Translations under genes and position numbers: made by a program
NCBI GenBank assembly: GCA_030068145.1
Contig: JAPJBO010000669.1
Span: forward strand, 62,001-126,000
Source: Diplonema papillatum
Taxonomy: Eukaryota; Euglenozoa; Diplonemea; Diplonemida; Diplonemidae
Reading direction: 5' to 3'
Length of the DNA stretch: 64,000 bases
Shown: positions 2,635-28,100 of the stretch, piece by piece
How the letters are laid out: each line of letters starts with the position of its first letter
How positions within the stretch are numbered: the stretch's first letter is position 1
Notes under the pieces: model-generated
The model's input: only the letters and a program-made list of their open reading frames with translations
What the model was told of the DNA's origin: nothing
Databases searched by the model: none

Positions 2635-5175
2635 ATGGGCAGAAAAGCTCGCACAACAGGCACGGGCGGGACGCACGTCGAAAAGGAAACGATGTCGGCG
2701 AAAAGGACGCTGTCGGAGATGAGAAGGATGGGAGGATCGGACTCATCGTTTTCGCTGCGAGACGGCCGAAAGGGATCCGACTCCAAAATGTCGGAGGCAC
2801 GAAGGGCCGAGATGAGGCGCAATGAGTCGAGAAGAATGTCAATGGACCGAGGTGGCGCCTCGTGGAACATCCGCGTCAGCGCGTTCCTGCCATCTGAAAC
2901 ATCCGACGTGTACTACAACGGAACAGAGGTCGTTTACACCCACGATGACGGTACCGAATCAACGTACTCAAGTGTAAAGCTCTTCACTGTTGAGGACCAC
3001 AAAGGCTTCTGCGGGCAGCACGTCGAACAGTTGACGAAACAGGCCCAAAAAGGTTACAACTGCCTGTTGCTCACGTACGGAAATCACGCACGCAGCAGAG
3101 TGAGTACCCTGATCGACCAGTATGGCATCGTGTACAGGACCGCCCGGCATTTTATGAGGATCGCGCGGTGTGTTAAGGTATCGATCCTGTCCGTAGGCAC
3201 CAACTCGATTATCGACGAGTTTGGCAACCCGAACAAGAGTCTGCACTACCTGCGAGATGACGTAAAAAACTACGTTCTGGACGCGCGCGTGCGGCGCCAG
3301 TTGGAAAACGAAGAGCAGCTGATGGACACTCTCGGCACTCTTGAAGAAACGCTACAGATGAGACAGCACATGAAGCAGAAAATGCTGTGGCCAGCCGTCG
3401 TTGTGATCCTGGAAGGCGTGGTTCAGGTGACGAACACAGATGCGGGGACGATTGTGACGACTCAGTTGATGGATCTGCCGTCGCCGAGCACGTGCCAGGT
3501 GTCGGAGTCGTTCACGAAGTACATCGCTGCGTACAGGAAGGAGGGCATCGAGACCACCACCAGCACGCCGATTACGCAGCTGATCCGGCAGTTTTTCACG
3601 CTGGGGGGCAACACTGTATTCCTAGCAGCGCACCTCAGCAACCACCGTCGCGACCGCGCTTCGAACAAAGCGACGCTCGACTTCTGCCAGCAGCTGGACG
3701 GCATCTCGCTGCCACGTGCCCGTAAGCCGTACCGTTCCGAGTCTGCTCTCAAAGACCGTCTTGTCGACATTGAATACTACGAAAGCCACCACAACCCCAC
3801 CCGCTTTAGCGAGCTCAACAAGACCCGCATCAACGATGACCTCCAGTGGATCCGCCAGCAGGTTGGTACCAAAGAAAAGGACGCCATCCAGCACGCGGTT
3901 TACAAGCGTATTTCCGACCTGGAAGAGAGCCACTACAGCGAGCCGTACCTGCGTGTTATTTCGCCCGAAGCTCGGGCCGGACTTGCTCTAGTGTTTTCGA
4001 ACAAGTATACCGTCTTTGGAAGGGATCCCTGGAGGAAGAAGCACGTGTCTGTTGCATTCCTCAAGGGTATTGGGCTTGCTGCTGATCACGCGTCTATCAT
4101 GTGGGATTCGACGAAATCGAGATTGGTTCTGTGCTCGATGTTTGGTGATTCTCACTTGAACAACCGACTCATGGGAAAAGCTCAGAAGAAGATTCTCTTC
4201 AACAACGACACCGTCACGTTCGGTACCAACACAAAGTACAAGGTCGTATTCCCGAACCACCACCACGAAGACGAGGAAGACGACGATGTTGATTCAGCCT
4301 ACCTCAGTGATGATGAAGAGTTTGCCGCGTTTACCACACGCATCGTAACAACACGTGTAGAGGTCCGCTTCTTTCTCAAGGCAACCCCCCGTTTTCACAT
4401 TTCCCAGATGGCTCTCCGCAACGAATTGGCTGACTATTGGGATACTCACGGAGACGACTTGAAAGTCTTCTTACCCGAACTCGACACTTCCCAATACATC
4501 GAAAAGCTGCGCGAGAACTACAGTTGGGGTGATTACCTCTCTCTTGTAGCCTTCACAAAGCTCAGGAAGGTGCAAATACGCCTTTTTTCAATCGATGAGA
4601 GAAGCAAGTTCCACACACAAACGGTAGGGGAAGCAGGCCCTCTTGTAATGCTTGGCTATATTGCCCAGGTGCACTACATCCCAGTCCTAGGCACGCTCAC
4701 CAACTTACAGCTCAAAAGGTTCCTCAACCCTCGAGCAGAATCCCGCGACAGCCCCTCCGTCTCCTCGACACTCCCAGAGGAACCGGTTCACCCGCGTGAA
4801 CGGCAACCGGCTGCACAACCGGAATCGCCGGAACGGCCACCCGCCCAACCGGCATCACCGGAACAGTCAATGACTCGCCCGGTAACACCGGAACAGCCAA
4901 GTGCTCGACCGCAAACGCCGGAATCGCGATCACCTGTTCTTCCGATGGGTCCGTCAACGCCAACACAAGCACAAGACTCGCAGGCAAGTCCAGCCGCAAA
5001 CATCCCACAAACACAAGAGCAGAATTCCCAGAACGTACTCAAATGCCGCCATTGTGGCGTGACAACAACAAGGTCCGGCAACCCGTTCGCTAACCAGTTT
5101 GGTGTGGGTGTGCACGAAAGGACCTGTGAAGGGAATTCGGAAGGACTGCAAAGCCCAAGCCCAGACCGAAATTAG
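2635..5175 (+). CDS. Kinesin-3-like pseudomotor / FHA / OTU-like / zinc-finger fusion protein
   Basis: A single open frame of 846 aa from the first ATG. Residues ~79-356 follow the kinesin motor fold in order: GYNCLLLTYG matches the segment before the P-loop, MRQHMKQKM replaces the NxxSSRSH switch I, QLMDLPSPS replaces LVDLAGSER, and LIRQFFTLGGNTVFLAAHLS matches the LLxxxLGGNSxT strand. The GxxxxGKT P-loop and both switches are therefore degenerate, and ATP binding looks lost. Residues ~455-540 are an FHA-like domain (TVFGR, ADHASIMW, SHLNNR, NNDTVTFGTNTKY), placed as in KIF1/kinesin-3. Residues ~577-686 resemble an OTU fold (ALRNELADYW, YSWGDYLSLVAF, final HY), but the DGNC cysteine box is missing, so peptidase activity is doubtful. 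A proline-rich linker with repeated PEQP/TPE units and a CX2C-X19-HX3C finger close the protein. Each domain is ordinary family knowledge; the combination is inferred from one continuous frame. A tethering or scaffold role is possible. Confidence 0.7.
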   Translation: MGRKARTTGTGGTHVEKETMSAKRTLSEMRRMGGSDSSFSLRDGRKGSDSKMSEARRAEMRRNESRRMSMDRGGASWNIRVSAFLPSETSDVYYNGTEVVYTHDDGTESTYSSVKLFTVEDHKGFCGQHVEQLTKQAQKGYNCLLLTYGNHARSRVSTLIDQYGIVYRTARHFMRIARCVKVSILSVGTNSIIDEFGNPNKSLHYLRDDVKNYVLDARVRRQLENEEQLMDTLGTLEETLQMRQHMKQKMLWPAVVVILEGVVQVTNTDAGTIVTTQLMDLPSPSTCQVSESFTKYIAAYRKEGIETTTSTPITQLIRQFFTLGGNTVFLAAHLSNHRRDRASNKATLDFCQQLDGISLPRARKPYRSESALKDRLVDIEYYESHHNPTRFSELNKTRINDDLQWIRQQVGTKEKDAIQHAVYKRISDLEESHYSEPYLRVISPEARAGLALVFSNKYTVFGRDPWRKKHVSVAFLKGIGLAADHASIMWDSTKSRLVLCSMFGDSHLNNRLMGKAQKKILFNNDTVTFGTNTKYKVVFPNHHHEDEEDDDVDSAYLSDDEEFAAFTTRIVTTRVEVRFFLKATPRFHISQMALRNELADYWDTHGDDLKVFLPELDTSQYIEKLRENYSWGDYLSLVAFTKLRKVQIRLFSIDERSKFHTQTVGEAGPLVMLGYIAQVHYIPVLGTLTNLQLKRFLNPRAESRDSPSVSSTLPEEPVHPRERQPAAQPESPERPPAQPASPEQSMTRPVTPEQPSARPQTPESRSPVLPMGPSTPTQAQDSQASPAANIPQTQEQNSQNVLKCRHCGVTTTRSGNPFANQFGVGVHERTCEGNSEGLQSPSPDRN

Positions 5176-6666
5176 CCCAGCACCTACCTGGCGCGCCTGA
5201 CCCAGCGAGCTACGAGGGTCGAAAAAATATCACCTACCCCCATTTCTTTTTTTTAAACAACCTTTCTCCTTTCCTACGTACTTTTATCATAGGTGTCACG
5301 GCAAGTTTTGGCAGCCGCTGCTTAACAAGCAGGTGACGACGTCATCCGATAACCTGACTTTCAAGGCAGTGCATGCTAATCCATGTGGTTCATGTACTTA
5401 AAAGAACTCAATGCTTAACAAAATTTGACGTGGGCGGCTTTAGATTTACATCTGAATGACACCTCAACACAAAGCAAGTTGTCGACAACTAACAAGTAAA
5501 AGAATAAAACAAAACTACGCATTTCTTTCCTCGCCCAGCTGAGGGCCAGCTACCAGCATATGAAAACAGATTTTAGCTCTCGGAGTTACCAACTACGAGT
5601 CTACAACCTTAATCAGATTTCTATATCTAGGGGAGGGAAATAGTACTTTGGCGGACATTGTCCGGCACTCACTCCCATATTGGAATTCTTGCGTTTCATT
5701 ATTGAGTTCTCCGCCCTTTTAGGGCTTTTCTCCCGCAGCATCTCTTTGATGGGGTATGACTAAACGATTGGCGAGAATGACGCTAGAACAACCAGAGCAT
5801 GCAATGGAAAGCAAATCAGAAGGTCACTTTGCGGAGCTTTCGCGCACCCCTGAAACCGGCAAGAATATGCTGCGCAGCCCGGAACCGTGTCCAAGTGCAC
5901 GAACCACAGAAAGAAGCATCAAAATGTGGCCCTCGCGCGTGGCCTTCGTCTTCTGAGGTCGAAGAGTACCCGAAACATGCCCGGATCAGTCCAGCCCGAG
6001 CAATCTTGTGTTGTAGGCTGGCACTTCTTTGGTCGCAAATTCCAGAGCCCAACAAGGTGCGGACGGCGGCCGTCCGCCGGACGGCTGCTGTCTCAATTTC
6101 GGGTAACCAACACAAGTCTGCTACCCGACGGCTGCTGTCTCAGTACAGGGTACAAGTCTGTTACGGACGGCTCCACGTGGCCAAGAGCCACGCCGCTTCC
6201 TTCCAAGATGAAAACGCGGAAGTGAAAAGGCGTTTTCCTGCGTACGATTCGCGATTCGACTGCAGCGACTATTTGGGCACAATTTCGTCCCAAACAGTAC
6301 TGCTGACGACGAGGGCACCTAGCATAGCTCCGGCGATTCAGTCGTCATCAACCGGTTCGGTGTTTGTTTGTTTCTTCCATCTTATTACACGTTCCTACAG
6401 AATCAGTTCGGGACATGTACGACAACTGTTGGTTGGGACCCTGAGAAGTCTGTAGCCGAAGACGCAGAAGAGACGGAAGACACCGGGAACTGGGGGCCGG
6501 ACGAAGATATGGAGGTGTGCTATTTTCTAGAGGTGTACCTCGTAGATGCCCCTACGAAACCCGTCTTTTGTGAAACGGGTAGAGCGGGGAGGTGTATGTC
6601 CAGCTTGTTGCCATTTTCGCATCAGACGGTATCAAACCTTGGGCTCACACATACACACAGCGTCAA
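5176..6666. other. Intergenic region before the PB1 gene
   Basis: Contains the 3' region of the fusion gene, including the shared 47-nt block at 5369-5415. At about 6060-6210 there is a repeat with CCGTCCGCCGGACGG-type palindromes that recurs near 31380-31700. Several frames are open for up to ~220 codons, but none has recognisable protein character. Upstream exons of the PB1 gene could lie here but cannot be shown. Confidence 0.5.
5369..5415. repeat. 47-nt block shared with the USP gene (copy 1)
   Basis: Forty-seven bases identical to 25722-25768, 193 bp after the stop codon of the fusion gene. Similarity continues in weaker form for about 20 more bases, to a GACGTGGG word. It is placed like a 3' UTR element. 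The second copy also lies downstream of a protease-type gene with the same C-terminal finger. Confidence 0.85.
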
Positions 6667-7335
6667 ATGAACGAGTTTCTGGCTTCAGTGATCAGCAACG
6701 ACCCGATGAAGGCGAATCCGGAAATTAACAGTTTCGTGGACCAGATCCTTGGAGAAGATGCGAAGGGGAACAAAGTGCAGAGCGAAACTGACAAGCTGCT
6801 CGACGACATTCTCAACGGAAGGATGCTTGAAGAAGCTGCAGGTGTCGGAGATAGTTCACCGACGGCGAAACAGAAGGGAAAGAGAAACAGAAGGGATAGA
6901 GGCGAGAAAGATACCAATCTTTTTGACAACGAGCCGTCTGAGGCTGACAGTTCGTGCCTTCCAAAAGTCCGGGTCTTCATTTCGATGTACGGCGACAATT
7001 TCCTGAAGTTCTTCATGTGTCCGCCTGATCTCGAGTACGACGAATTCATGGAGAGGATCGAGGTCAAGTTCGGGCAGGCAGGGCTCTCAGTCTTCTACGA
7101 GGACCCACAAAACGACTTCGAGCGGGTTGAGATCATGGACGACTATGCTGTCTCCGCCTTCTTTCGTAGACACGAAGACGAGAACCTGCGTCTTTACGCT
7201 TTCCCCGCTGAACTCAGCGGAACACGCTTGGCCACCTTACCATCAGCCCGTGGCTCCGTGGCCGACAGTGAAGCTGGCATGTTCGACTACGCCCCTCCTT
7301 CTCTCCCCCCCACTTCGCCCTTGAAGGCGAGGTGA
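6667..7335 (+). CDS. PB1-domain protein
   Basis: The frame from ATG 6667 gives 222 aa. Residues 1-65 are polar and acidic. A lysine/arginine-rich stretch (KQKGKRNRRDRGEKD) follows, then a PB1-like domain from KVRVFISMYGDNFLKFF to LRLYAF. It has the usual ubiquitin-like order: a basic first strand, a middle helix (YDEFMERIEVKFG), an acidic DPQNDFERVEIMDD loop resembling the OPCA motif, and a last strand LRLYAF. PB1 domains mediate head-to-tail protein pairing in signalling and autophagy proteins. The C-terminus is a short proline/serine tail. The frame is open a little upstream, and an AG follows a CA-rich run at 6653-6660, so a 5' exon is possible. No partner with a PB1 domain is visible in the window. 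Confidence 0.6.
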   Translation: MNEFLASVISNDPMKANPEINSFVDQILGEDAKGNKVQSETDKLLDDILNGRMLEEAAGVGDSSPTAKQKGKRNRRDRGEKDTNLFDNEPSEADSSCLPKVRVFISMYGDNFLKFFMCPPDLEYDEFMERIEVKFGQAGLSVFYEDPQNDFERVEIMDDYAVSAFFRRHEDENLRLYAFPAELSGTRLATLPSARGSVADSEAGMFDYAPPSLPPTSPLKAR

Positions 7336-10300
7336 AATGAACTGAACCACCGGCTCTTCTTAAACGCGAAATAGCTTGAAAATAACACTCGTCTCCGCTC
7401 CAATGATGTTTGTGCGGGCCGTCCAACTTGTTTGAGTTTTGTCCAAGTCATTCCTTGTCTACTCTATGTCGCCCATTCCACGAAGAAATGTCACGAAAAG
7501 CAGCCGTTTTGGGGTTTTGGAAACTTTTTGGGAAATCATTCTTTTGGGGCAAGAGTTCTCCCTGGCAATCATGGGCAAGCAATCGGTACTGAGCGAACTG
7601 CGGGACGAGGAAGAGGAGCAACATCTGTTAGTCCGCCCGGGCATTTGCTTTTGCGAGCAAGGCCCGCCAATTGCTGTCTCTGAAACCCTGGCCGGGCATG
7701 AATCAGTTTCTCGTATATTTTTTTCCACCGGGATCGGCTAGTTTTTTCCCTTAACGCGAACACGGCTTTGTTCTCTGCTGGAATGGGTGATATCTTTTCG
7801 TGGGGGTTTTGGGCCGGCATCCCAAGCAATAGGCTTGCTAAGAATAATTCCAAGATGAGTAGACGGGGTCCGGACAGGCCTTGGACACTTGAATAAAGGC
7901 GGTGCTGTCGAGTGCCGATGTACGGCAGCTCCGCGGAAATGTTCGTGCAAAGCGGAGAAGACTCATTTTGTTGTGTGAAGAAAGCTGGATAGCTGTCGGC
8001 GCGCCTACCACAAGGGGGTTGGGACGTATGTCGATAAGCCATAAGCTGTTGACGAGTAATCAAGTGAACAAGGACTTCACACTGCCCATCCCTCCCCACT
8101 CCCCTATCGCTCATCCAAGCAACTACACGCCCCGCGCCTGAGAAAATGTTACCGATACGCTCCAGAAACGTAGCAGGCATCCGTCCTCAGAGTTTTAGAG
8201 AGAGGCAGAAGTAGCTCAGAGCAAACCAAAACCAACGGCCCGAAACTCCGAGTTTCCTCCATAGCTTCGCGAGCACGAAGGGCTACTTTGGTACAAAAAG
8301 ACTTCTGATACCGACGAGAGAGAGAGGCTTTCAGTCCGGCTTCTTTCAAGCAAACCGTCTCTTGCCGGCAAGGACCAAACTCGGATGCTTACTCCTGACG
8401 GGTTTTCAAAGAAGCAAGAGCTGCATTCGACCAACAGTTCCCAAGACTATTTACGTTATCGTTCCACATGCCAAAGAGTTGCGCACCAGCAGCATCTCCC
8501 AAATAATGCCATCTTATGTCGCAGTTTACGTAGAAGTATTTCACCAAATTGATGATCCGAACCTTCTGCTATCAGGTGGCCACTGTCGGCTGAAAACCCT
8601 TAGTCCAAAAACCACTCTCTGTGAGAGTTGAAAGCTCGCTGGTTTTCTCTCACGCAGCATTTTGCGTCCCCAGTCTTTACATGTTTCCTCCTTGCCCACT
8701 ACTTGGCATAAGGGTTCTTCCCCCCACCGATCTTCCCATCCAACACATTTCCGCCATTCCCACTAGCCTATCGCTGTTACCTAAATTACAGCGACCAAAA
8801 GAAAGTGTACCTCCGGTCTACGATTGGGACTACGTTGCGTGGTTCGGTAAAGGGCCAATCCACCCGTGTTCGGATGCACAATGTATAAGAAAGAAGCTGG
8901 CGTCTGTTCAGTTCGGTCTTCAGCGACGCCTGTCCACTTTATGTAAAACAATAACCCTTCCTGACGGCACCTTAAGTCTGTTTATAGCAGCAAGAGCTGA
9001 AAGCAAGAGATCGTCCCCGGTTATGGAAATTCCACGCGCTCACAAACACACGCACATACTAGCAAGCTTGCTTGAGCGCCCATAGTGGCATCCCATTTTC
9101 CGTTTCCACACATTTGACGTACGCGATGCCCCCTATTTCCACTCTCTACGAGATTGGACAGGGTTAGTATTACGCAAACATCCAGGCCGTTTCCCTCTCC
9201 CGCTGTGTGTACTCGAAAGACCAGAAACGGAAAGCAAGGGATTCCACACACACACACACACACACAAACACACACAACACACTTCACTGCGTGAGTTTCA
9301 TCTCCGCGGCGCGTACAGTTGTCGCCGTTCAGACAAGATATCACCGTGTATAAACAGGTAACCCGTCTACAGCGATCCCTGCCGATCTCTGCTCACGTGC
9401 TTGTTGGCACCTTTCGTTCTGCGCTTTTTTTTTGCGTCCCGTTCTCCTCTCATCCCCCGATTTCCCCCCCAGTTACCCCCCCCTTTTTTTTAAGCTTCGA
9501 TTGCCACAGCACTGTTTTGGTGGAAGGCCCCTTTGCGCCTAGCCAGGGGCTCTTGCCTGAGTAGTGTTTCAGAGAGATAGGAAAAGCAAGGATAATCGGG
9601 CAGGGAGGACCCTCCTGTTCACCGCTAAAGAGGAAGTGCTTGACATCTCACAGAAAGTGAGGCGCTGTGTACTTAAGAAACCAGACCCCATCCTGAACGG
9701 TCAACAGCATCGGAGATCCGGATGCTACCTCAGGTGGGATAGCAACCTCGTGCGTCCACACTGCAATCTTACCTTTTTTGCTCTTCTCTTTTTGCTTGCC
9801 TGCAGTTATTCCCTCCCTTCGAACTCTTTTCTGTTTTTTTTCCCCCGTTCATTTTTGAACAAAAGTTCGCATTTCTTTCCGACGATTGGCTGAGATCCCG
9901 TGTACGATATCGATATAGTTCCTCGAAGGGCTCTTCGAACCCACGCGTCTGTTCTCGGTATCGTGATGTGGGCGCGCGATATATCCGGCTGGGACGGACT
10001 ACGCGGGTGGGGGGAATTACAGACTCTGGCGTGGCTCGGCTCAGGTTCCGGTCCAAACCCCAATCGCGCCCCCTTTGTTATTTCTTATTTCCGATCTTTC
10101 GTACAAGCACCATTGGTTCCCCCAAACGTAGCATCCGCCTCGCCGTTCGCCTTTCTAGCGGCATAATTCAGCGGGCACGAAGCAGCGCTAGAGGAGTTGC
10201 GGATTGGTCTTGAAGCTTCGTTTCAACCGTGTCTTGGGGAGAGTCACGGTTCGATCTTCGACGCGATGCTTGCGACGGTTATCACCGACAAGAGAGCATT

Positions 10301-10400
10301 GTTGGGTGCGATCGGAGAAGGGCGGTGCTGGGCCCTTTTGCTGCTGCTCACACGAGCAAGCGATAGTCTTAAACGTGCTCCCGATACTCAGCCCGATTTT
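7336..10400. other. Gene-poor stretch
   Basis: No gene with recognisable protein character is seen on either strand. It contains a (CA)n run at 9245-9279 and short C- and T-runs near 9430-9495. Open frames here are short and overlap on several strands, as expected of noncoding DNA. Confidence 0.5.
9245..9279. repeat. (CA)n microsatellite
   Basis: An imperfect dinucleotide run interrupted by AA and ACAACA. Confidence 0.9.
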
Positions 10401-10419
10401 TGTGGGAAAAAGTGGGGCT

Positions 10420-13400
10420 GCCGGTGGGTGGGCAGGTGGGCAGGTGGGCAGGTGGGCAGGTGTACAGGTCGGTAGTTGAGTGGACAGATGGGCGGGTGTA
10501 GGCAGGTTGGTGGATGGATGAACAGGTGAGTAGTTGGGTAGACGGGTGGCAAGTGCGTGAGCTGTGTACAGATATGCAGGTAGGTGTGCTCTTGTGCTTC
10601 GGACGTGACTCTCTTGAGCCGTCCGTGTTCCTCCTCCTCCTCCGATCCTCTTCCTTGGCCACCTCGACAGCTCGCAGGGCGTTCTTAGCACCGTGCGAGA
10701 GAACTCGGATGCATCTACCACTCCTATGCAGTTGTTGAGACATCCCCTGCAGCCTGCGGATTCGGAGGGCCTCAAGGCGAACCAGCAGTTGCTGGAAAAC
10801 CTGCAGGACCTGCCTTGAGTCCTTCGACACAGGGAGGTTGTGCATGTTAGCAGGTTCAGCCATCATCTGGCTCTTCTGTTTGCGGGTGCAACCTTCGGTA
10901 CCACGAGTTTGCCATTCTTATGTCAAACTCTCCAATTCCCTCTTGGGTTTTGGTTTGGGCAAGAAGTATTCACGCCCGCCATCTCCCGATCACCCTCCCA
11001 CTTCTGGCCACGCTGCAGCAGTCACGTGCAAACCGGGCAGACCCAGTCGTCGTCCCCCCATCTGGTCCCCGAACGACGAGCACCGCTCTTGCACCCGAGG
11101 TTAGCCTTCAATGCCGCATCGGAACAGTGGGTCGATATGCCGTTGTGCGAAGACTGCAGGAACTACCGGACCTGCGAAGTCGGCGGCCAGGACAGTGCTG
11201 CAAGCGGGGGCATCACCACCGCCGGGTGCTACAGCAACAACCCGAGCACGAAAAACCGAAGAGACGGAAGCGCGGGCCTTCGCCCCCGGGGACGCCCGAA
11301 GCGACGCCGAAGTCGAGACGCAAGCTGCGACCACCCATCCAAAAGCGCCACAAGGGAAGCGGCGGATGCCGGCGCCAGCACCGCCATCGAGAACGCCGCA
11401 GAAGGCGGCGACAGCACCAGGACGGCCGCTGGTAACGAAGCAGCGGAAGGACGCCATCATCGAAGACGGAGACGAACACTCCGCGGGCAAAGGTGCAGGA
11501 TAAGGTACCAGCGACGAAGAGAGGTAGCACGAAGAGGTAGTCACGAAAGAGAGCAGATGCAGATTATCGCCACAGGTTCTTTGCAGGCTAACTCTAACCA
11601 CCAGGACCAGGAACAGTTGCGGTCGAAGACGGCAATTCGAGCGAGGAGTAAGGTTGATAACCAAAATGAGAGGCACGATGGCCACCCCGAGACGAGTTGG
11701 AATGCGGGTACCATCTTTCCGGAGATTTCCGGTTCCTCCCGTACTCTACAACTCCCCACATTAGTGAACGTGGACTCCGAAGTGTGACACACCTTTCAAC
11801 CGGGTGCACGAATTCAAAATTCCGGGATGAGTTGAGTTTCGGGGGGTTTCGGGAAGTGTCGGGGAGTTTCGGGGAACTTACCAGGAGCCCGGACCAGGTG
11901 GCGAGGAGCATCTGGCGGTCACTGATTGACGAACCAGAACATGCTGAACATTGATAAGGTTTCAGGACACCCAGATTGGTTTCTTGATGGAAATCAACGT
12001 CCGCCTAGGCTCCTCCTCCAGCTCCTCGAAATGAAATGAATAAAAAGGCCAAACCTTCGGGAAAACCGGATCCGCCAGAAATTAAAACGTCACCATTAAA
12101 GCCGCCAGAATTACCGTCTATCCTGTAAGGGCATAAATTTGTTTTGAGTGGGAGAAAAGGGCACTACACCTTAAATATATTGTGCGCCGATCATCTTGCA
12201 CGTCCCGCACTGCGTCATCCTGTGCTTCTCGCAATACTTCACGGCGAGGCCGTCCCCTGCCGCGTTGTGTGCCTCGCAGCAGCGCTACCAACGCTTGCCG
12301 ACGTTTGCACTCTTCGCATTTCACATGTGATGTCCCGCACACTCTCTCGTCCTTGGTGGTGTGCCTGGGCACGCCTACCTCCATGCGCTGGGTCTCCGCC
12401 GCCCACTAAATTTACCCTCTTCTGCCCTTCTTGCCGGAGGTGCCGTCTTCGAAGGCGTCCCACCAGCACGTCCGATCCTTTCCTCCCCATACGTGGAGAA
12501 TACGTCCATCCCCCAGACCTCATCATTGAAGGCGTGCCTGTTCCTCCCCAGCTGCGACTCGAGCACGAGCATCGTCTCTGTACCCGCACGACCTCTGGTG
12601 AAACGGTTCCTGCCCTCGTTGCGCAGCGCAAGGTACCTCCTGTATTCGACCCCCCCCAGTAAGCGTTCTGCTTTGAAGGGCTGCGAAACCTCCAATTTGA
12701 GAGTCCGGGGGACCTTACGAAGGTCATTGCATACACCGTGCTGCATGAAGAACGGGTGCGGCCAATCTTCACCACGTTCAAGAACGAACCCCAAATACTT
12801 GTGGCCACTCTACGAACTCTGGCTTGTGAAGGTCCGGCGATCAACAGCCGCGAAGAACCCGCCCGCGCTGATGGCAGAGACGGCAACGAAGAGGAAATCC
12901 ACTCTGACGAAGAAGACGAAGAAACGAAGAAGACACAGAATGCGAGGAAATCGAAGAAAACGCCATCGAAGAAGAAGAAAGCTACTCTGACGAAGAAAAC
13001 GAAGAAGACGGAGACACATCCCACTCTGATGAAGCATCTGGTGAAGACGACAACGATAAACCGGCGACATCCATCCAGCCCCGCATGCCTGCCCAAGGCA
13101 ACCGTTTCGTGTCGTCAGAAGTCTTTTCCGACACAGTGTGTCAGTCCGCTGTGAAGGCCGGCCGCCTGTCGCTTACGCGATATTGCATCATCCTGCGTAA
13201 AGTCATCTGCGCTACGATCGACGGAATTCGCTCTCCAAGTACGGAGCCAAGGTGCTCAGCATTCCTACGAATCATGTTCCACGTCCTGTGATTCGTACTT
13301 TCAACCTGAATACCATGAGAAATCATGTTCTATCTCCTGTGATTCATGGTGGACTTGCAACAACCTTCACCCCGCCTTCACCCCGCTGTCGGACATATAG

Positions 13401-16505: not shown

Positions 16506-16609
16506 CACTCGCCCTAGCACTCGCCCTAGCACTCGCCCTTGCACTCGCCCTAGCACTCGCCCTAGCACTCGCCCTAGCACTCGCCCTCACTCGCCCTTCA
16601 CTCGCCCTC
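16506..16609. repeat. 12-bp tandem repeat ACTCGCCCTAGC
   Basis: About eight units of a 12-bp repeat, with a few variant units (CTTGC, CTCAC). Because 12 is a multiple of three, both strands stay open and give artificial alternating ARAS or LALA peptides. Confidence 0.9.
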
Positions 16610-18022
16610 AGTACCATACAGGGTCAATTTCTTGTTGGGGTAGGCTGTTCCTGCCTGAAGGTCTGTTTGGCGGCTGTCCCTGCCTGAAGGTCTGTTTGGC
16701 TGTCCTTGGGTTGCCCGTGCCGGTGTTGAACTCTTTCTCCAACAGCACGGCCAGCGTCCCTGCGCTCATTCTGCGGTTCTTCGCTCTTGCCTGACTCCTT
16801 GCTTCCACCGGGCCTACGGGTAGGACGAAACCTGCCGTTCAGTGTCGCTGCTTTGCGAAGCCCTGCCTGCGGTACGGCTCGCACCTTGTCACCGGCCTTA
16901 CTTGCCGTCTGCTCTTGTATGGCGGCCTCGTAGGTGCACATCGACCGCCTGCTGGTTCGATGCCAATCTCTGGCTGGCGGGTGAACTCGCCTCGCGGGAA
17001 TTGCCGCATGCGCTGCGGGCTCTCTTCTTCTTTGCGACTGCACGGCCTGCGGCGGCGGCTAGTGCCTTGATGGGAAACTTCAGTTTATACACGGGTGTGG
17101 CGTCGTTCCAGCGGTCGTTGGAGCAAACTGCTTCGTCCTCCTCCAGCTGCAAAACGTGACCGGTCGGCATTTGCGGCGTACCCAGATAGTGTAAAGAACG
17201 TGGGCGGTCGGCATGGCGGCGTACCCAGGCAGCGTAAAGAGCATACACCTTGTCGCCACTTCCCGGGGAAGGCTGAGGCTCCCGTGTCAGCTGAGGAGAT
17301 TTGCTTCAGATTACGAGCAAATAATAGCAAATGTAAGCAAAGAAACGCAACTTTAAGCAATTTTAAGCAAAGTAGGCATCACGCACTAGGGATTTTGACA
17401 ACTGAGTAAGCATGCAACGAAGGCAGGAAAAGGCGAACCTGCGGAAACGGAGGAGGGACTGCGTTGCACGATAGCCGATACGATAAGAATGGCGCCGTTG
17501 AAGAAAAGCCTCGCAATGCTCAACCATTCTTACAGTGTTCCCGGAACAGAAGGAGAAGGACGATCGAAACCCCCAACATGACACCAGAAAAGCTGAAGAA
17601 CGACTCGATGTGATCAAGGTTCTGACTCGCAGACCTTGGGTCTATGCACAAGGGCACTCGTTCCTCTACTATCCGGTGGGTCCTGTTCAAAGAACAGGAG
17701 GCAGTAGATGCATGTCAACGAGGTGGGAACATGGCCGGTCTCAACAAGAGGCCACCATTGCAAGAGGCATCTGTCTGTCGTCGGGTACGATGGTCTCGGC
17801 CATGAGTAGGGGTGGGTGCGAAGTCTTGGATATGTCAGGCGGCGCCCTACCAGTGCAAGGGTTGTTTCGATGGACGACTTCCGGATGAAGCAGGAGAAAA
17901 TACAAGGAACTGTGAGAGCTTGATGGACACTCACAACGTCACAGCACAGCGGTGACAAAGCGCACGAAAGCACACCAATATTCCACAAAATGTTTTGCAG
18001 GGCCCTCGCATGTGGTCCTAAG

Positions 18023-18149
18023 TGGCCAGCCGCCCTGTTTTGAGATCGGAGAAGACCCGGAACGTGCCAGCGCGCTGGCAGGCGCTAGCAGGGCATGTTT
18101 CGGGCATCTTCCGGGTCGCCCCCCGACCTGAGAACAGGGTCGCTGGCCA
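18023..18149. repeat. Fold-back (inverted repeat) element
   Basis: Arms of about 26 bp, starting TGGCCAGC at 18023 and ending GCTGGCCA at 18149, enclose a second inverted pair (GAAGACCCGG and its mirror CATCTTCCGGGTC) and a central 14-bp palindrome, GCCAGCGCGCTGGC. Part of the same sequence recurs at 41219-41250 inside an intron. It is a small palindromic repeat, possibly a MITE. Confidence 0.7.
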
Positions 18150-18480
18150 CCCCCACGGGCAAGGGCCCGGGAACACTTTCTGGGTTTTTTCTGCGGGGTT
18201 TGTGCACTTGAACACGGTTCCGGGCTGCTCAGGCCGAAGGTAGGCCAATTCTAACTGGTTTCATGGGTCCTTCAAAGTGCCCAGTTTTTTGCTCTTTTTT
18301 GCTAAGATTTTCCCCCGGGGGTCCGCTCTTTCCATTCCCTCCCCTGGTGGTAGCATGTCTAGAGAAGCGGTCCATTCCCCATGCCTGACCACTAGATCTG
18401 TGCCTGTAGGCACCAGTGGTTCTCAAGCACCGCTTGGTCTCCTCGCTCAAAAGGCCGGGCGGAACTCATACTCTGTGTGG

Positions 18481-18790
18481 CTACTGCGAAGGGCGGACGG
18501 TGCGCAAGGACTCAATCCGACCCGGAAGCAGTCCTGCTCCAGTACTCGATTCTCCGAGCATCTTCAACGTCTTTGCCAAAGCAACGCCTTTACCAAGGCC
18601 TTCGCCCTTGTGCCCAGCGGGGTGACGCTCAACGTCGCCACCAGACTCCGGGCCATTGAAACCGTGGAAGATGGCGGCAGGCAATGCGATGCAGTTCCAG
18701 GGGATAGGGGGGAGGACCGGCTCATTATCGTACAAAGCCGAATCCAGCCGTTTGGCTCGTTCATGACCGCCCCGTCGATCAGTTGAAGAG
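18481..18790 (-). pseudogene. Second fragment of the recurrent unidentified family
   Basis: The minus-strand frame carries LAKTLKMLGESSTG and GRIESLRTVRPSQ, corresponding to the middle of the frame at 61607-62329 (minus). It is short and not accompanied by a full gene. Confidence 0.35.
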
Positions 18791-19014
18791 CTCAAATGAC
18801 GTGTTTTCCTGTTTGAAATGGAGAGTTCACGTGCGTTTTGGACGTGTAGACTGTCATCACACTCATATGCTCTCGTCTGATGAGCGATTGTACTCACTAT
18901 CGACTGTACGTTAAAAACCTCTCCAAGCAGGAATGTGGGTAGTTCAAAAGAATAGCTTCCAGGGACTTCAGGCTCGTAGCTCTTGTTCGCCTGGTCCGCG
19001 GTTTCAGGTCAACA

Positions 19015-19139
19015 ATGACCCTGACATCAGAAAGACGCAAGTCTCGCCGTTCTGAACTCGAAGCATTAAGAAACGCTATCGCACGCTACGAAGAAGATGG
19101 AAATTGCCTCACGGACGAATTAGACTTCATCGCTGACAG
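19015..19139 (+). CDS. Coiled-coil gene, exon 1 (start codon)
   Basis: ATG at 19015 opens 41 codons plus two bases, a short charged helix (SRRSELEALRNAIARYEEDG). It stops at a GTATCG donor in phase 2. Without splicing the frame ends after 55 codons. The word DGNC occurs here, but nothing else resembles an OTU protease. Confidence 0.55.
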
Positions 19140-22100
19140 GTATCGGCTTAAAAACTTTGTAGCCTCTGAGTCACCCTGCTGACATCCACAGCCTCAGGTC
19201 CAACTAAATTAGACCCTTTGCTCTTTAAGGTAGCGCAATGCGTTGATGACACAGAAACAGAAAGGCCAGCAGCCGGTCAGCATTGCACGACGAGTTTTTT
19301 TCTCAACGCTCTACTGCGAATGAGTCAACGGAACGCCATGGTTTGCCGTCCTCTGCTCTTCCCTCGCGCGATGAAAGATATTGTCGAAACAGAGGATGAC
19401 AAAGGCTCCGCCGCTGTTGGGCTGGCTACGGGGCTGGCTACGGGGAAGACTGCTATGAAGCATTCTTCATGGCACGGCCATTTGAGCAGCTGAACGGAAT
19501 TACCAGAAAGCACCTGGAAGACAGCACCGCCGGTCTACCCGTATATACCCGGTATAAGTGCATGCTTTCCTGGCGTCTTTCCACAGAGACTGGAGAAGAA
19601 GGCTGCATAGTCGAAACCGCGGTCTAGGATGGCGCCGGTCTGTGCGTGGCTTACTAGAACAAGCGGGTCGTCAACGCTGTTGTAGTGAAGCTGGCCAGGA
19701 TTTTGTGCGATTGTTTCCAAAGGCGCACGACTCGTAATTTGCACCGCAGGTCAGGAGATCGAGACCGCAACGCTTCAATATCAATATTCAATACGAAGGG
19801 ACCACAAATAACGTGCATCCGCGGTCCCGAAAGGCATTTCCGGAAGTGTCGTGTGTTGCAGCAGAAATGTCGCAAAAAGTTCAACGAAGTACAGTAAATG
19901 CTGAGAACTCGCAACCTCGAAGAAGGCCAAGCAGACCGCCGTGGCAAGAGGGCGCCCCCCCACCAGGGGACAACACGGGAAAATGGAGATTGGTGCGTTT
20001 GGTCTTCCCAGAGGGTTACATGCCTGTGTCAATTACCAGGCAGTTACTGTCAAAAACAGGGGGGGGGCATTTATCATTATTGTAAGCAACAGGTATACGT
20101 ACACGCTGAATCGCTGGCAAACCAGTTTCAGAGAGAAATTGAATTCAAACAACACCCGCTTGTAGAGAACCAACCACCTCCTGGTGGGCTAGTCTGATAC
20201 TTGCCGTCGTTGGGGAAACATTTACGTCGTCGGTCAGAACGAAGTGCAAAGTGGCAGACGGTCCGCATCAACGGGGGGGGGCGCATACTGTGCATACGAG
20301 TCGTATTCCCGTCTGAACTCGTATTTTGGTTTTCGGAGCAAATTCTCGCCAAACGACTCGTATTCTCGTGCCAAACTCGTCTAAACTCGTATCATTCTGG
20401 TCAAGCTCGTCTAAACTCGTATTGACGAGTTTGAGACGAGTACAGGCTATTTTCACTGTGGAACACGCAGCCGACTGTTTCTGCGGATGCATGGTGGTGA
20501 CATTTTTGCCGCCGACGACGACAACGACGCCGACGATGACTACCTGGAAGCTCCCCACATGTGCATTGCGCGAGGGCAGACCTTCACCAGGCAGTATTCT
20601 GTCCAAAACACCAATACATGTAACCCCCGACGGGGGAACCGTTTCCGGACGGGGGGTTCACGGGGGGGCATTATCACCCCCCGTGAAACCCCCGTGACAC
20701 CCGCAACGGGGGTTTTCTGGGTACCCTTTGGGTGGAAGATAGTCAGAACCAGCGCGAGGGTCTTGGCAAGCTCCTCCTCTGAGACCTGTAGCGCTGTTGG
20801 CGCGTCGAGGCGTGGAAATCATCCGTCTGCTGACCGCCCAACTCAGCGAACGAAGTGGAACCCCCAACTCTCCAAACAAAGTGGTACACTCAACTCAGCA
20901 AACGAGCCTGGGCAGAGAGAACAGAAACGTGCAAACTAGGGCGGGAGGTGGCATCAGATTCCGAAGGACAGACAGGCACAGAAGTCGGAAACCGGTCCAC
21001 CCACACGATGCAATCTACGACTGTTTTCGACAGCTATTGCTTGAGTTAGAATGCAAAGAATTTGTGGCAAGCATCTACATCGCCGGTTCGCGGTTACCTC
21101 TTCGCATGTGACGGCCCTCCCTTTTGGAGCGAACTTGGGGCTTGGGGCACGAGGACTTTGTCGACGGTACCAAGATACATCAGGGAACAGCTGAGTACCT
21201 TAGAACGGGCCAACAACACCGTGGACACGCAATTCTTTTGCCTCTGCATACGCACATGCTTGCACAGCTCTCTTCCACAGCCGTCTGACCACGTTGCCGC
21301 GCAAAAATGAACACATCAGGCATCGCTGCAACCCCCGTCGGGGAATTTGTGGTGGAAATCCCCCGTGACCCCCGTTTTCCCCCTTCGGAGGCTGAGCCCG
21401 AACCCCCCGTCGTTTTTTGCAATCCCCCGTCGGGTTACATGTATGGCCACCCCTTCTCCTGCATTTATGCCGTAACAAGATTGGCAGCCCCTCGGGCTTC
21501 TTGAGCACCGTGGCACTGTCAAAAACAGGGGTTCAAACGCACCAGAGATGCGTAGATCTGCGTTTTGACTGCGACGCAGATGCATGGCCGCTGTCACTGT
21601 TCAAGCAGAGGGCCGATGGAGTGCAGGCAAATTCGTGCTTAGCGGCAATAGGGCACCAGTGCCTGCGGTGCGAGAGGGTACAAGTATGAGGTGGGGCTAA
21701 TTCCGGTACATAATATTTCCGGTCCAGACTTATTCCGGTCCAGAATATTTCTGTTTAGGAAATACTGTGGCTATACTTCGATTCAGTCGTTATTCCACTC
21801 AAAGTACTGAACTTAAACACACACACACACCCACAGTGTTGCGAATTTCGAGGTGCCGAAGGCGACTCGACACACGGTTAACACTGCGTTTGCTCACCAG
21901 GACCCACCGCAGCAGCATCGTACTGACCTCCGTCGGCGCAGACGACCACCAACTAGCAGGCTTCATCCTCCCTATCACGGACTAATCTCAGAGGATCACA
22001 ACACCGAGAACTCCGCATCTACATCCGATTCAGAATCCACCAACACCGAAGCTCCTCCATTTACCGCGCGTGCAAGCGACCTTCTAACACACCCTCGACA

Positions 22101-25100
22101 TAAACTGACTTCGCCAAAAAGCGTGTACCCGTTGGACTTTCACGCGGTGCGATTGCAAGAAGGCGCAGACAACCGCACAACAAGGGACGCTGCAGTCACA
22201 AGCGGTCAGTTTCGGAGCAACGAAGGTTGCGTTCACCAACGAGCTGCAGCACACGGTGGAGTATTCGAAAGCACCGAAGGGGTAACACCGGACAGGATCG
22301 GCAGCAAAGCGAAGCACGAGGAAGCCAGCTCGAAACTACCGGCTTCGCCAAGACCTACTACCCACGTTCCTCAGCAGGACAAACCAAGACCACTGTTGCC
22401 GGGCACCCATGGACTTCCGCTGCTAAGTGATGGTGGTCTTCTAGATACAAACGAAATACACTCGGGTCGCTCGGCAGTAGCCGACAGCGACTGTACACCA
22501 CTGCCGCAGAAATGCCAGCCGGCACCACTGGGAAACGATGCTGGGGACGAAGACGGAAAACTGCGCACACCGGCTTCGATTTCTGACGCACCAGTGCTGG
22601 TCGCGAGTTCGACGATGCTTCGCAAGGAGGTGGGGCCGCCACTCAGCCACACGCCTCCAGTCCCACTGCAGACTGCAGCAGCCGATATCGGCAATATTAG
22701 GACAAGGGAAGGGGCTGAGTGGCGGTCACTGTTCGAGCTCTCATCGATGCGAGAAGCCGCGAAGCCGGCCATCCAGGCGGGTGAAGAGTATTTGACAGAG
22801 CACGTAACATCTATCATCCGCGAAAACGCGTCTCTCGCCGCACAGCTGGTGGACATCAAATCGCGAGTACGTGCCCACGAAGCGACGATCGAGCATATGG
22901 AATCGACTGCAAAGCAGCAAACCGAGACTATTGAACACTGCCGTTCCCAGATGTCTGGGCTTGCTCTCATTCCGATCCATGAGGACACCATCAAGCGTTT
23001 AGAGGCGCAGTGCTCGTCGAAGAATGAACTTCTGGCAGAGCTCGAAGCGAGCCTTGCGAAGGCTAGAGGCAAGCAGCGTGATGCAAATGCTGGCCTTGAG
23101 CTGGTCAAGAGGAACCACGCGAAAAGAATCGAGACGATGGAGCAAGACCACATCCGCGACTTGCGCGAACTGAAGGCAGAGCATGACGCCAAAGCGAGTG
23201 CCGCCGCTTCAAAAATGCAGGGCTTCACTTCAAAGATAGGTTTGTACCTCCCTGTCATTTTTGTCAATTTGTCAGATGGCGCTTGGGCTTCGAGCCAACA
23301 AACAGAAAGTGTCGAGAAAACTCAATTCTTGTTATTCCTACCCCACTTTATCATTGCTTAACACAGCAAACGCTTTTTTTGTGTTAACAATGCATTGTTG
23401 GCACTAAGAATTGGTAGTTGGCACAAAATGGCTCAGAATGCAGGTTCGCGGCCAGAATGTGGAAATACTGTCTTGGAATACAACTGTTTTTGCGACAACC
23501 AGTTTCTGCTTCCCTGGAGACAGTATTTGTTACAGCTAAAAAGCTGCAAACCACGAATCAGCGAGCCAGAATACGCCGGTAAGCATCCCCCCGTCAACTT
23601 CCACCCAGCGGAGCTCCCCGTCACATCAAACGAGTTGGCCACCCAGGCGGACGATTGTTCTACTACGACCACCGAACGAGAAGACAGCCTCGACGCAAAC
23701 CCCCCGCAGCCCACGTTAAACTGGAGCCCGAAGATGAGAGTAGCCAACCTGGTCACTGTCATCACCCTCGCAGCAGCAGTCGCAGCAGGTGGTGCCAGAA
23801 CCATGGCAAAGCTTTCTCGGTACACTACGACCAACTCCTGCTTTCTGCAAGCGGCAATGAACTTGATCGCCGCGACGGACATGGCTCAACAAGTCGTGAT
23901 GTACCAGAAGTGCCCACATCACGCGAAGGGCGAATGCACAGCGGCCGTATACGAATGGGTTACGGGCAATCGATCGCAAGCGACGCTCCTGCACGTCTTT
24001 GCTAGCATCGACGGACCATTCGGCTACGGCCAACAGTGCGACCTCGGGGAAGTGCTGAGAGCGACCATCTCCGTGCTACTCATCGAAAAGTTGGCACACC
24101 GAACCTGTCGGCACCGCCAAGACTTCTTCGATGGCTTATGGCACGAGAGCACGGTTGCCACGACCTGCTCAGTGTGCAATCACACGAAGTCGAACCGGCC
24201 CGAACCGCAGGATATCACTTTCCTACCACCCGCGGAAGCCACAATACAGGGAAGTTTGAACCATGTCGGCCAGTGGCGTAAGGCTGCCGACTACAAATGC
24301 GGCGCATGCAAGCACATCAACACCACATCAACCAAAACTGTCTTTAGCCATACTTCAACTGTCTTTCACACCGTCAACACGATGGTTATGATTCAACTCC
24401 AAAGGGTCAACAAAGACGGAACCGCAAACCGCACCGCCGTACACCCAGAACACTCAATCCGGTTACCAGGGCTGGGCGCGCAGCTTAATTTGAAAGCAGT
24501 TGCGGTACACACCGGCTTCAATGATGCTGGGCACTACCGCATCCACGCCTACAACGCTATCGCAGACACCAACCAGCGGTGGACGTGTTTTGACGGTTTA
24601 CAAACGTGCAGTACGGCGACACCCCGCTTCTCCGACAACGAGACCTACCTATGCGTCTACCAGCCCGTGGACGATCACACAAACGAAGCCCCATCTGTGG
24701 TTCCCTTACCTCCCGACGACCAACGCGCACGACTAGCAGACTCGACGCAAGACCTACTCGAAGCCTTACGAGGAGACGAAAAATCCCAAAACCCAAGCAC
24801 CGCAGAATCCCTGCAACCCACTACGGAACCAGAATCTAGCGACGAAGATGAACTCCAGTGCCCGCACTGCCTCACGCGCACGACGGAAACAGTGGAGAAG
24901 TTCAAAGGTTTCCAAGGCCTCCGAACCCACCAACGACGATGCAAGAACAAACACCGCTCACCAGCACGGACGAAATCGACGTTGTCAAACACTGCGCTTA
25001 AGAGAGAATGATGTCCTTTTTGACACAGCGACGGACGAACCGCGGGGAAACCGCTTTTCAACAGTCTACGACACCACAAACCGTGGTGCAAAAAGAGGCA

Positions 25101-28100
25101 TCAAAAACTGAGAACAACCAGAAGGAGTCCTTCAGTCGAATAAACCACAGGTACCCAGTGTACCCAGAGTGCCTAGGCTGTGGCGAGCAACGAACAGCCC
25201 AACATTTACCGCCGTTTCAAAAAAAACTATCAGCTCAATAAGTCCCTTTAGCACACAACTACGTAGTAGAAGACACAGATAACAATCAGATTGCCGCCAA
25301 GGCAACAGCTACCAGGACACTAGACCGATACGGGCTACATGGCAACCCCTGCTAAACATGCAGAAAAGAGCCCGACTCCCGACACCACCGAATGACCCGG
25401 CGGGAAAACCCGGAAAAAAGCACGCGGCGCGAAAGCGCAACATTTCGAGAATGGAGCTGGATATCACCAGCCCTGCCACCTCGACTTCATCCTCATCCAT
25501 GTCAGGATCGCCCCCTCGAGCGACTGCTTCGGCAGGACAGCCGGCGCGAAAGCGCAACAAACGAAGAATGGAGCTGGATATCACCAGCCTATTATCACCG
25601 TCCTCGTCCGCTTTGAGATCGTCCTCGGACGACGTATTCAAATAACCCTAGCCTATGACAAATGCAAGCTTACCCCTGTGGTACCTGCATTTCAAGTTCA
25701 CACTGCTAAACATGTATGCACGTGCATGCTAATCCATGTGGTTCATGTACTTAAAAGAACTCAATGCTAAACATGTATGCACGTGGGGGGCCCGAGATCG
25801 CTTTCCTCGCGAACGTGAACTCGGTGTCGGTCACAAGAACCATGAATTTGGCAAAGCACATAGGAAAAAAGAGCGCGCGCTAAAGTAAGTCGAATAGTCG
25901 GCAATAGAAAGCAAAGATATACACACAAACATACAATACCTTAAAGGAACCTATGTATGACTACGGTCACCCGGAGACTATAAAACCCCGGATCCCTAAG
26001 CGAACTTGCACTCTATAAAGAACGTTGGCAGCGGTTTAACCAGAACACATGTAGGTTAAATCGCACAAACAAAAAATATATTGCTCGTGCAGATGGCGAT
26101 TGACCTGAAGGCTGTCGACTGGTCTCCCATCGAGGTCGTCCCTGCCCCCGACGGTTGGGAGGCCGCCGACGCGGACGTGGACTGCTGCGTCGACTGTGGC
26201 AAGGCCCACAACTCGGGTGCCTTCGGTGCCCGGTGCGGCAAACGGGGGTTCCCGTCATGCCTGAAGGCATCCCTGCCGAAGGAGGTCGCGCCCCTGTTCC
26301 TCGAACACTTGTCCGAGGCTGGGTCTGTCCCCAGTGCCTGGTGTCACTACACCAGGCCGGCAGCAGCCTAAAAGAAGAACAGAACGCGAGGGGGACCCGT
26401 GATCACGATCCGGCTGTCCCCCCGAGCTTGGACCCATGCTCCCTGCTCGCTGCTCTCGAAGAGGGGCCAGTCAAGACTGCCTTTCTTGCATTGTTTGCAC
26501 AGTCTGCCATGCAGGCTCAGCTCGCTCCAGTGCCAGCCGCACCGGTCACTACCGAAGCGGTGGATCCTCGTCGAGTCACTACTTGGCTGGAAGGATTGGC
26601 GAGCGGACAGGGGCGACAGATGATTCTGTCGGAGGTTAAGGCACGGTACACGTACCACCTGGTGCCAGAGCACCCCCACGATGCGGGAAGCTCCCTGGAT
26701 CATGAGCGGAGGATGCATTTCTCCACGCTCACGGCTCTGATGCCCCTGGCACACAGCTCCCCGCCTGTCCTCCAGGTTTTGCACCAGATCATGGTCCGCC
26801 TCGAAGCCCTTCGCCTTAAATGCCTCCACTCGAACGGCACTGAGTTCCAGGTTTCCTGGGAGACTCGCTTCGGATCCATGAACTATGCCGACTTCACGAA
26901 GGCGGCCTTGATCCAAGCCCAGAAGGCCATGGCCGAGCTGGCAAAAGGCAGACAACAAGGAGGAGAAGAAGGAGCCCTCCCTGAAGAGGCCTCGAAGGTG
27001 AGGGTCGGCGAGTCCCGCGGGCCTGCCTACCGCGGGTTTGTGGGCAGAGGTGGTAAAGAGGTCACTACCTCGGAAACAAGACTTCGGGTGTCCCGATCAA
27101 GATCGGTTCCGAAGGGATCAGGAGGCAGTCCTCCTCGCCGTGCAGAAGTGCAACAAGAGCACCCCTGCCTGGTGAGCCGCGCTCAGAGGAGGCCCGACGC
27201 TTTCGTCCCACGTTATCCGACGAGGAAGCCTTCCTGATGTGGGTGAATCGGAAGGTGACGGCTGGCGACATCAAGGCCGAGTCGGCTCTCCAGTACGTGA
27301 CCTACTTCCGGATGTCTCGGGTGAACTGGATGAGCGCATACCGGCGCTCGGTCAGGCTGACCATGGATCAGTTCGAGGGATGCCGGGCGGACCCCATCCA
27401 AAGAGGAGGTCCTACAGGTGGTCTCACGAGGCCCCGGCTTGCATACCATGGCCCTCCGGTTCCAGTGGTCGACGGCGTGCCGGTTCGTGGACCTGCAACG
27501 GGTCCGGTTGGACCACATGTGGTCGGTGGACAAGCAACAGGTCATGATCCTGTTTGTCGGCGGGAAGACCGACCCGACGTCCCGAGGACAGGGTCTCTTA
27601 CTGCCACGAAGCGGGGCTTTTCTGACGCCTTTTTGGGAATGGATCACCATCCAACGCCCTGCCAGCGGCCCCAAGGCGTTCGTGTTCCCCAACCTGTCAA
27701 GACAGGCTTACAACAGTTTCCTTCAAGAGGAGCTGGGGGTTCCTTCACACAGGATCAGACATGCCGCGCTGACTTGGGTGGCTTTTGTGGAAGGAGAGCA
27801 AGCAGCGATGTGCGTAGGTCGTCACGTCAACCCCAGGACGACGCGGCTGTACACGCCGCATCACCTTTGGCAGCCGACAGTCCCGGGTACAGCTGCGCTG
27901 CAGAAAACCGACTGAACGACCGCCCCGCTAAGCCTCCATTGTGGCCGCGCCACCTGGACAAGATCCTCCAGGGTTACGACTACGCCAACGGTTGGTTGAA
28001 CGCCAGCAGTGGAAAACGCGTAACGAAGGCATCCTATGAAGGTGAAATAGCTTCGACGGCTCCGCCGTTCAGTCACGAAGCGCTCCTGCACGATTTTCCC

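Follow-up and report, generated by a model that had tools for sequence, protein, structure and literature searches.

Nested retroelements in Diplonema papillatum: LINE insertions in a covarying pseudoknot element of Penelope-like elements

We analyzed a stretch of 64,000 nucleotides (nt) of Diplonema papillatum DNA (the window; contig JAPJBO010000669.1, positions 62,001 to 126,000, forward strand), in which two open reading frames (ORFs) coding for proteins P0001 and P0002 are each followed by the same 47-nt block (5369-5415 and 25722-25768). A preliminary description had presented the two as unrelated protease-type proteins joined by a shared 3' module: a shuffled exon and untranslated region (UTR), a mobile cassette, or a gene family united by a C-terminal finger and a common RNA element. 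Its primary observations were reproduced. The blocks are identical, and shuffled sequences (n = 100) gave a mean of 0.00 matches even with 3 mismatches. The finger, C-X2-C-X19-H-X3-C, lies near the C-terminus of both proteins and appeared in 0 of 2,000 residue shuffles of P0001 and 1 of 2,000 of P0002. The main domains differ, with OTU in P0001 (Pfam E 5.4e-7) versus UCH/USP in P0002 (E 1.6e-6), both above the Pfam cut-off. We propose a different explanation in two layers, to which we assign a probability of about 0.9: target-specific long interspersed nuclear elements (LINEs) of the apurinic/apyrimidinic endonuclease (APE) type parasitize a functional RNA element of Penelope-like elements (PLEs), and the window "proteases" are truncated PLEs. 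Feature coordinates are collected in Table 1.

Table 1. Features assigned by sequence comparison at the two window loci (TSD, target-site duplication; P1-P3 and PK, paired segments of the PLE element).
Feature	Position	Strand	Basis or content
Exon of host gene DIPPA_12219	2692-4362	+	P0076 (nr) equals P0001 up to ..RIVTTRVE and resumes at 6401
DIPPA_12219 intron (GT..AG) containing PLE piece and LINE footprint	4363-6400	+	GAG/GTCCGC and TACAG/AATCAG fit the protein junction VE/NQFG
5'-truncated OTU-ended PLE (family A): partial OTU, finger, 3' terminal repeat	4404-5529	+	Similarity to the L066 PLE
Finger codons C-X2-C-X19-H-X3-C, PLE A	5044-5127	+	P0001 residues 809-836; motif also present in the PLE of L066
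5' half of PLE pseudoknot element	5292-5318	+	P1a GGTGTC, ACGG, PKa, GGCA, P2a GCCGC
TSD TGCTTAACAA	5319-5328 (copy 1); 5412-5421 (copy 2)	+	
5'-truncated first-family LINE, about 83 nt, holding block core 5372-5411	5329-5411	+	Matches genomic LINE copies at 95-99% identity where they overlap
3' half of PLE pseudoknot element	5412-5463	+	Loop, PKb, P2b GCGGC, P3 hairpin, P1b GACACC
5'-truncated USP-ended PLE (family F): USP domain and finger	23512-25011	+	Pfam UCH; matches from P0002 residue 40 onward
Finger codons C-X2-C-X19-H-X3-C, PLE F	24859-24942	+	P0002 residues 489-516
5' half of PLE pseudoknot element	25323-25349	+	P1a GACCGA, PKa CTACATG, P2a CCCC
TSD TGCTAAACATG of second LINE family	25350-25360	+	Recurs at 25704-25714
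5'-truncated second, related LINE family, 343 nt, tail GCATTTCAAGTTCACAC	25361-25703	+	Initial 35 codons match residues 1567-1601 of P0031 (1612 residues) at 100% identity
TSD TGCTAAACATGTATGCACGTG of first-family insertion	25704-25724 (copy 1); 25765-25785 (copy 2)	+	
First-family LINE footprint, 40 nt (block core)	25725-25764	+	
3' half of PLE pseudoknot element	25765-25832	+	PKb, P2b GGGG, P3, P1b TCGGTC
Terminal-repeat sequence common to USP PLE L065 (both its ends)	25935-26019	+	78% identity to L065 64-147 and 9690-9773

Genome-wide counts were made in a D. papillatum assembly of 271 Mb (the published assembly has about 280 Mb, PMC10161547), which holds 1,483 exact copies of the 47-nt block. 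Among annotated proteins the nearest matches also come from this species, with identities of up to 100%. In a search with a 66-nt query, which also included the flank of the family-A PLE, the copies shared this flank and a common tail and differed in their left ends. Because agreement in the tail with variation at the left is what 5'-truncated LINEs display, the block is assigned, from sequence, to neither PLE but to an independent LINE, whose 3' tail it forms. Strictly, the 47 nt are an overlap of two things. Forty of them (the block cores of Table 1) are certain LINE sequence; the block flanks GTG and TGCT are shared with the target-site duplication (TSD) at the second site, and TGCT with that at the first.

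A full-length copy of this LINE (L039, on the reverse strand) spans about 8.1 kb, with an ORF1 of 674 codons and an ORF2 of 1,992 codons. Pfam places in ORF2 an AlkB-type 2OG oxygenase (E 5.9e-12, residues 159-255), an EEP endonuclease (Exo_endo_phos, E 1.4e-8) and a reverse transcriptase (RT; RVT_1, E 1.1e-18). GDIEQNPGP, a 2A-like motif, stands between AlkB and EEP. The element has the marks of an APE-type LINE, namely EEP and RT in one ORF, 5' truncation and TSDs. In this one copy ORF1 and ORF2 share a frame and are parted by a single TGA, with no Met in the next 207 codons, into the AlkB domain; this suggests that readthrough would be needed for expression of AlkB, endonuclease and RT. The 5' end of L039 is a 39-nt sequence that fits the spliced leader. 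Followed by GT, it occurs 236 times in the genome and, among 100 matches listed, forms arrays at about 1.2-kb spacing on some contigs. The spliced-leader exon of D. papillatum is 39 nt long (PMC10161547). The LINE was probably copied from a trans-spliced RNA, since L039 opens with the 39 nt that recur in the spliced-leader gene arrays. A second LINE family is represented by P0031, which matches the first at 55% identity over 48% of the query.

First-family copies break off at many positions: at 83 nt at the first window site and at about 270, 410, 660 and 1,230 nt in L007, L005, L004 and L003. This spread, with no separate 5' part seen, speaks against the block being a small SINE-like (short interspersed element-like) repeat mobilized in trans by the LINE, instead of an extreme 5' truncation. 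Such a repeat would account for the many short copies, as 16 of the first 30 listed extend at most 25 nt beyond the block (a script returned 17, corrected because L012 proved to be a long LINE copy from a subfamily), but breakpoints near the 5' edge of the block are partly forced by a search pattern starting there. We consider a SINE-like repeat unlikely and retain truncation of the LINE itself.

The two window sites record the insertions directly. Removal of 5319-5411 from the first site restores exactly the empty site found at L057. At the second site the order is 5' half-site, second-family LINE, its TSD, 40-nt footprint and 3' half-site, an arrangement that identifies a site struck twice, by two related LINEs. 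Genome-wide, a pattern comprising the exact last 27 nt of the first-family tail, without TGCT, was found 2,555 times, with TGCTNAAC directly next in 2,082 cases. A looser 10-nt tail pattern joins the PLE 3' half-site TGCTNAAC-N(3-12)-ACGTGGG at 1,973 places, and sites with an uninterrupted loop (GGCARNNNNTGCTNAAC-N(3-12)-ACGTGGG) number 2,044; reversed-pattern controls gave 0 in each search. The second-family tail lies directly before TGCTNAAC at 338 genomic places. As both families also sit at the second window site, they are assigned one shared insertion site. Among the first 30 listed copies of the block, for which the search pattern already ended in TGCT, 28 continue with NAAC; 21 run into a full 3' half-site, 5 into a tandem LINE copy and 4 into neither. 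TSDs of at least 7 nt (range 7-24 nt) flank 14 of these 30 loci. Together these patterns mark the LINE as target-specific and its sites as non-random.

These results also bear on the shared 3' exon or UTR cassette, or finger-united gene family, for which the 47-nt block would be a common RNA element. The finger near both C-termini and a 3' RNA element that the two families do have in common agree with that explanation. It is very improbable given the 2,044 elements with an insert-free loop, the TSDs flanking the block, the other copies that extend upstream into LINE ORF2, and an annotated product of the OTU locus that skips the segment; a shuffled exon or shared UTR was rejected on account of the empty sites and TSDs. 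What survives of the shared module is thus the finger, carried by one PLE superfamily, and the common 3' element; the block is neither exon nor UTR but an independent LINE footprint that interrupts this element. The preliminary description would have counted as its refutation a block occurring hundreds of times at random positions without link to such genes, and the outcome is divided. Frequent it proved to be, but at non-random positions that favor PLE 3' half-sites. Nor do its copies always follow ubiquitin-protease-like genes, the link being to PLE terminal elements and not to protease genes as such. When 15 PLE proteins served as queries, 28 of the first 30 listed block loci gave no match to PLE coding sequence in the surrounding 1.5 kb or so. 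The remaining two, L020 and L035, match P0016, doubtfully because P0016 also matches LINE ORF2.

Fuller copies of the PLEs, lying upstream of such sites, contain ORFs of 1,547 amino acids (L066, OTU end) and 2,663 amino acids (L065, USP end). Their layout comprises GIY-YIG, CxC, telomerase-like RT, OTU or USP, and the C-terminal CX2C-X19-HX3C finger. In L066, GIY-YIG (E 5.2e-5, residues 301-349, ahead of the RT motifs) and OTU exceed the Pfam cut-off. The GIY-YIG match of L065 is weak (E 0.026, below cut-off); among relatives, P0004 and P0005 lie above the cut-off, P0006 lies just below it and P0010 gave no match. CPC and CAC occur in the linkers of the L066 and L065 proteins. The Naiad/Chlamys clade is defined by an endonuclease (EN) N-terminal to the RT and a CxC linker; GIY-YIG before the RT and the CxC linker fit this clade. 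The relative P0006 matches L066 at 30% identity across 93% of the part searched. When its predicted structure was compared with the PDB by Foldseek, the 14 best matches were telomerase (best E 4.5e-9) and R2 ranked 17th. The terminal repeats of L066 are 247 nt long and 100% identical; those of L065 measure at least 212 nt, being clipped by the edge of the analyzed piece. GIY-YIG, likeness of the RT to telomerase and repeated termini are all traits of PLEs.

The window "proteases" can be identified with 5'-truncated members of these elements. The family-A piece shares 78.9% amino acid identity with the L066 PLE over 256 residues, and 83-98% nucleotide identity in pieces. From residue 40, P0002 matches stretches of open frames as long as 2,762 codons (for example at 58% identity) and L065 at 54%. 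It retains the Cys box, from residue 147, and the His box, from residue 379. The finger is common to both window proteins because both derive from one PLE superfamily with varying deubiquitinase-like domains. The strict form occurs in both fuller PLE proteins (L066, L065); of 13 relatives from the database, P0005, P0007 and P0015 have it and the other 10 do not, and it was found in 0 of 59 LINE relatives. Further finger-bearing USP ORFs (L044, L045, L047, L051) provide no test of the finger, as the motif itself selected them. In data from other eukaryotes, P0058 and P0068 combine an OTU domain with an RT.

The "OTU fusion protein" of the preliminary description is not the annotated gene product, since the annotated protein of DIPPA_12219 omits 4363-6400. 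The exon of this gene gave kinesin-like and PB1-like Pfam matches, all below the cut-off. A transcriptome relative, P0077, is 37% identical over 791 amino acids and has no OTU match. The catalytic-Cys segment (GNGNCLF in L066) is absent from the window OTU copy P0001. Because the annotated product skips the segment, P0077 lacks OTU and the Cys segment is missing, the fusion ORF most likely reflects reading past the splice donor, OTU here being an intronic relic. A genuine OTU fusion gene, or a truncated PLE fused in frame, was rejected, the PLE piece being intronic in an annotated gene. The USP PLE may be intronic as well.

The site hit by the LINEs is part of an element that L066, the full PLE checked, carries in both terminal repeats. 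Its order is P1a, ACGG, PKa, GGCAR, P2a, TGCTNAAC, PKb, ACGTG, P2b, P3 hairpin and P1b. The letters ACGG, GGCAR, TGCTNAAC and ACGTG are constant, and the pseudoknot helix has 7-9 bp in most sites. An alignment (A3) was built from 25 element sequences minus L060 (longer loop) and L084 (degenerate, without P2b). Over these 23 sites 85.6% of the cells of pseudoknot and P2 pair, versus 62.8% after shuffling (0 of 500 shuffles reach this), and covariation is 0.536 versus 0.173 (0 of 500), with slid versions at or below 0.161; kinship among sites inflates these shuffle tests. For 19 distinct pairs of pseudoknot arms, scored as paired bases minus 1.5 per bulge, the mean is 6.3 within families versus 2.4 between them, which 0 of about 2,000 shuffles reach. 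Distinct compensations are visible, such as GATAAGCC/GGCTTATC, CTACAAG/CTTGTAG and ATGTTTG/CAAACAT. P1 was tested separately because MAFFT misplaces P1b in A3, and pairs at 5.9 of 6 positions versus 3.1 (9 distinct helices; P1b is not recognizable in L021, L054, L061 and L082, and L085 equals L079).

Covariation cannot separate DNA from RNA, and the LINE inserts within the loop, so the pseudoknot might be conserved as DNA, for example as a structure recognized by the PLE or LINE endonuclease. Crossing helices are unusual in extruded DNA, and G-U pairs at several columns of the pseudoknot helix fit RNA better; conservation as DNA is therefore improbable in our judgment, and we favor an element that works as RNA for the PLE, through cleavage or through binding of RT or finger. 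An Rfam search of the window gave no hit, and searches of sets of 7 and 16 loci returned no ribozyme up to E 10. There were 24 hits in the 7-locus set and 5 in the 16-locus set, none a ribozyme and none overlapping the element; most fall short of the gathering score and belong to miRNA, small-RNA or CRISPR-repeat families. A hammerhead or other Rfam ribozyme in the element was rejected, as no Rfam family matches it. Near one PLE site (L064, 1-798) Rfam detected a large-subunit (28S) rRNA fragment (E 3.1e-14).

Several results weigh against our interpretation. Of the LINE tails, 473 of 2,555 lack TGCTNAAC next to them, so the preference, though strong, has exceptions, unless sites decay. At 16 of the 30 listed loci the comparison gave no TSD of 7 nt, in part because long LINE copies extend beyond the compared flank. 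Two of five pairing measures of the element were not above shuffles (double-change pairs 11 versus 10.0, pair types 20 versus 23.7). L060, L077 and L082 pair poorly or partly in the pseudoknot, L082 scoring 1 and L077 2, and single-sequence folds of four sequences improved just mildly on shuffled ones (z-scores of -1.2 to -2.0) with a program that does not model pseudoknots. On the protein side, the P0006 model has a mean predicted local distance difference test score (pLDDT) of 50, although its RT-core blocks reach 80-90, and its telomerase TM-scores are just 0.20-0.26 by query length. A sequence profile search of the PDB with the PLE alignment (A1, 12 of 13 relatives, P0012 omitted) found no RT, returning USPs and one designed protein (E 4.5).

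The nesting, the duplications, the site preference and the covariation are read directly from the sequence. Judging from known LINE biology, the LINE endonuclease would nick at the border of P2a and the loop, with the TGCTNAAC loop as insertion site, and the LINE would thus read the site as DNA. Reverse transcription would be primed at the nick (target-primed), 7-24 nt would be duplicated, and synthesis would frequently stop after 40-70 nt, leaving a short tail footprint. As insertion splits the pseudoknot, the element should thereby be disabled. More tentatively, within PLE RNA the element may be a ribozyme, or a handle that the RT or the finger recognizes.

Tx1L and Tx1D exemplify the Tx1 clade of LINEs. 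The D. papillatum LINEs resemble this clade in their EEP endonuclease, precise target, TSD and multicopy mobile target, a likeness by features. Transposons are among the known targets of target-specific APE-type LINEs (PMC4640811). Unlike in the Tx1 clade, the target here is the loop of a covarying, putative RNA element common to many PLE families, and ORF2 opens with AlkB and a 2A-like motif in a LINE with a spliced leader at its 5' end. For the PLEs, Craig et al. reportedly described in 2021 elements with an N-terminal GIY-YIG, the Naiad/Chlamys clade. The shared traits are GIY-YIG before the RT, a CxC linker, a telomerase-like RT, pseudo-long terminal repeats (pseudo-LTRs) and no canonical hammerhead; the D. 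papillatum PLEs differ in the C-terminal OTU or USP with the C2HC finger, the terminal-repeat pseudoknot and the diplonemid host.

Canonical PLE clades carry hammerhead ribozymes in their terminal repeats, and to our knowledge none is required in the clade with an N-terminal EN. It is conceivable, if doubtful, that the pseudoknot is a self-cleaving ribozyme of a new class, taking the place of the hammerhead in these PLEs, with at least two LINE families specialized on inserting into its conserved loop; one retroelement would then live off another's ribozyme. The element resembles canonical PLE terminal-repeat ribozymes (PMC11167929, PMC6431247) in its terminal-repeat position, small size and compact fold, and differs in being pseudoknotted, in constant letters without CUGANGA, and in matching no Rfam ribozyme (E up to 10, searched loci). 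With permuted hammerhead ribozymes (PMC10085705) it shares a compact RNA, pseudoknots and covariation; these retain CUGAnGA, which the constant letters of the element do not contain.

OTU domains seem recurrent in retroelements. In the literature that could be covered, a search for PLE with GIY-YIG and OTU met "OTU" only in connection with Helentrons. Searches for PLE with pseudoknot, diplonemid with Penelope, deubiquitinase with retrotransposon, and AlkB with non-LTR elements gave nothing comparable within a coverage outside which most subscription papers lay. An active AlkB domain has been described in Gypsy elements of orchids (PMC9289625), and the word "Penelope" is absent from the main text of the D. 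papillatum genome paper (PMC10161547).

The contig holds another copy of the USP PLE (L045) upstream of the window, and this copy bears the same second-LINE tail and first-LINE footprint. Duplication of the region therefore probably followed both insertions. Within the window, a coiled-coil-like ORF at 21853-23361 stands just before the USP segment, and contains a candidate splice donor (AG/GTTTGT) near 23240. Long inverted repeats, together with some direct ones, at 10380-12622 and 34364-36493 (about 81-100% identity in listed pairs) flank the central 22 kb, and tandem repeats of 29-31 nt in opposite orientation, about 1.8 kb apart, occupy 46437-46657 and 48438-48605.

With some 2,000 copies of the element intact in the loop and some 2,000 split by a LINE, one culturable genome offers a natural insertion screen of a retroelement RNA. 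The arrangement illustrates how a LINE can choose a target that is hard to lose by mutation, since a second mobile element depends on it. A Penelope-type RT joined to deubiquitinase-like domains and a finger would be a further unusual design. A catalytic pseudoknot, if that is what it is, would supply what the absent hammerhead leaves open in this PLE clade.

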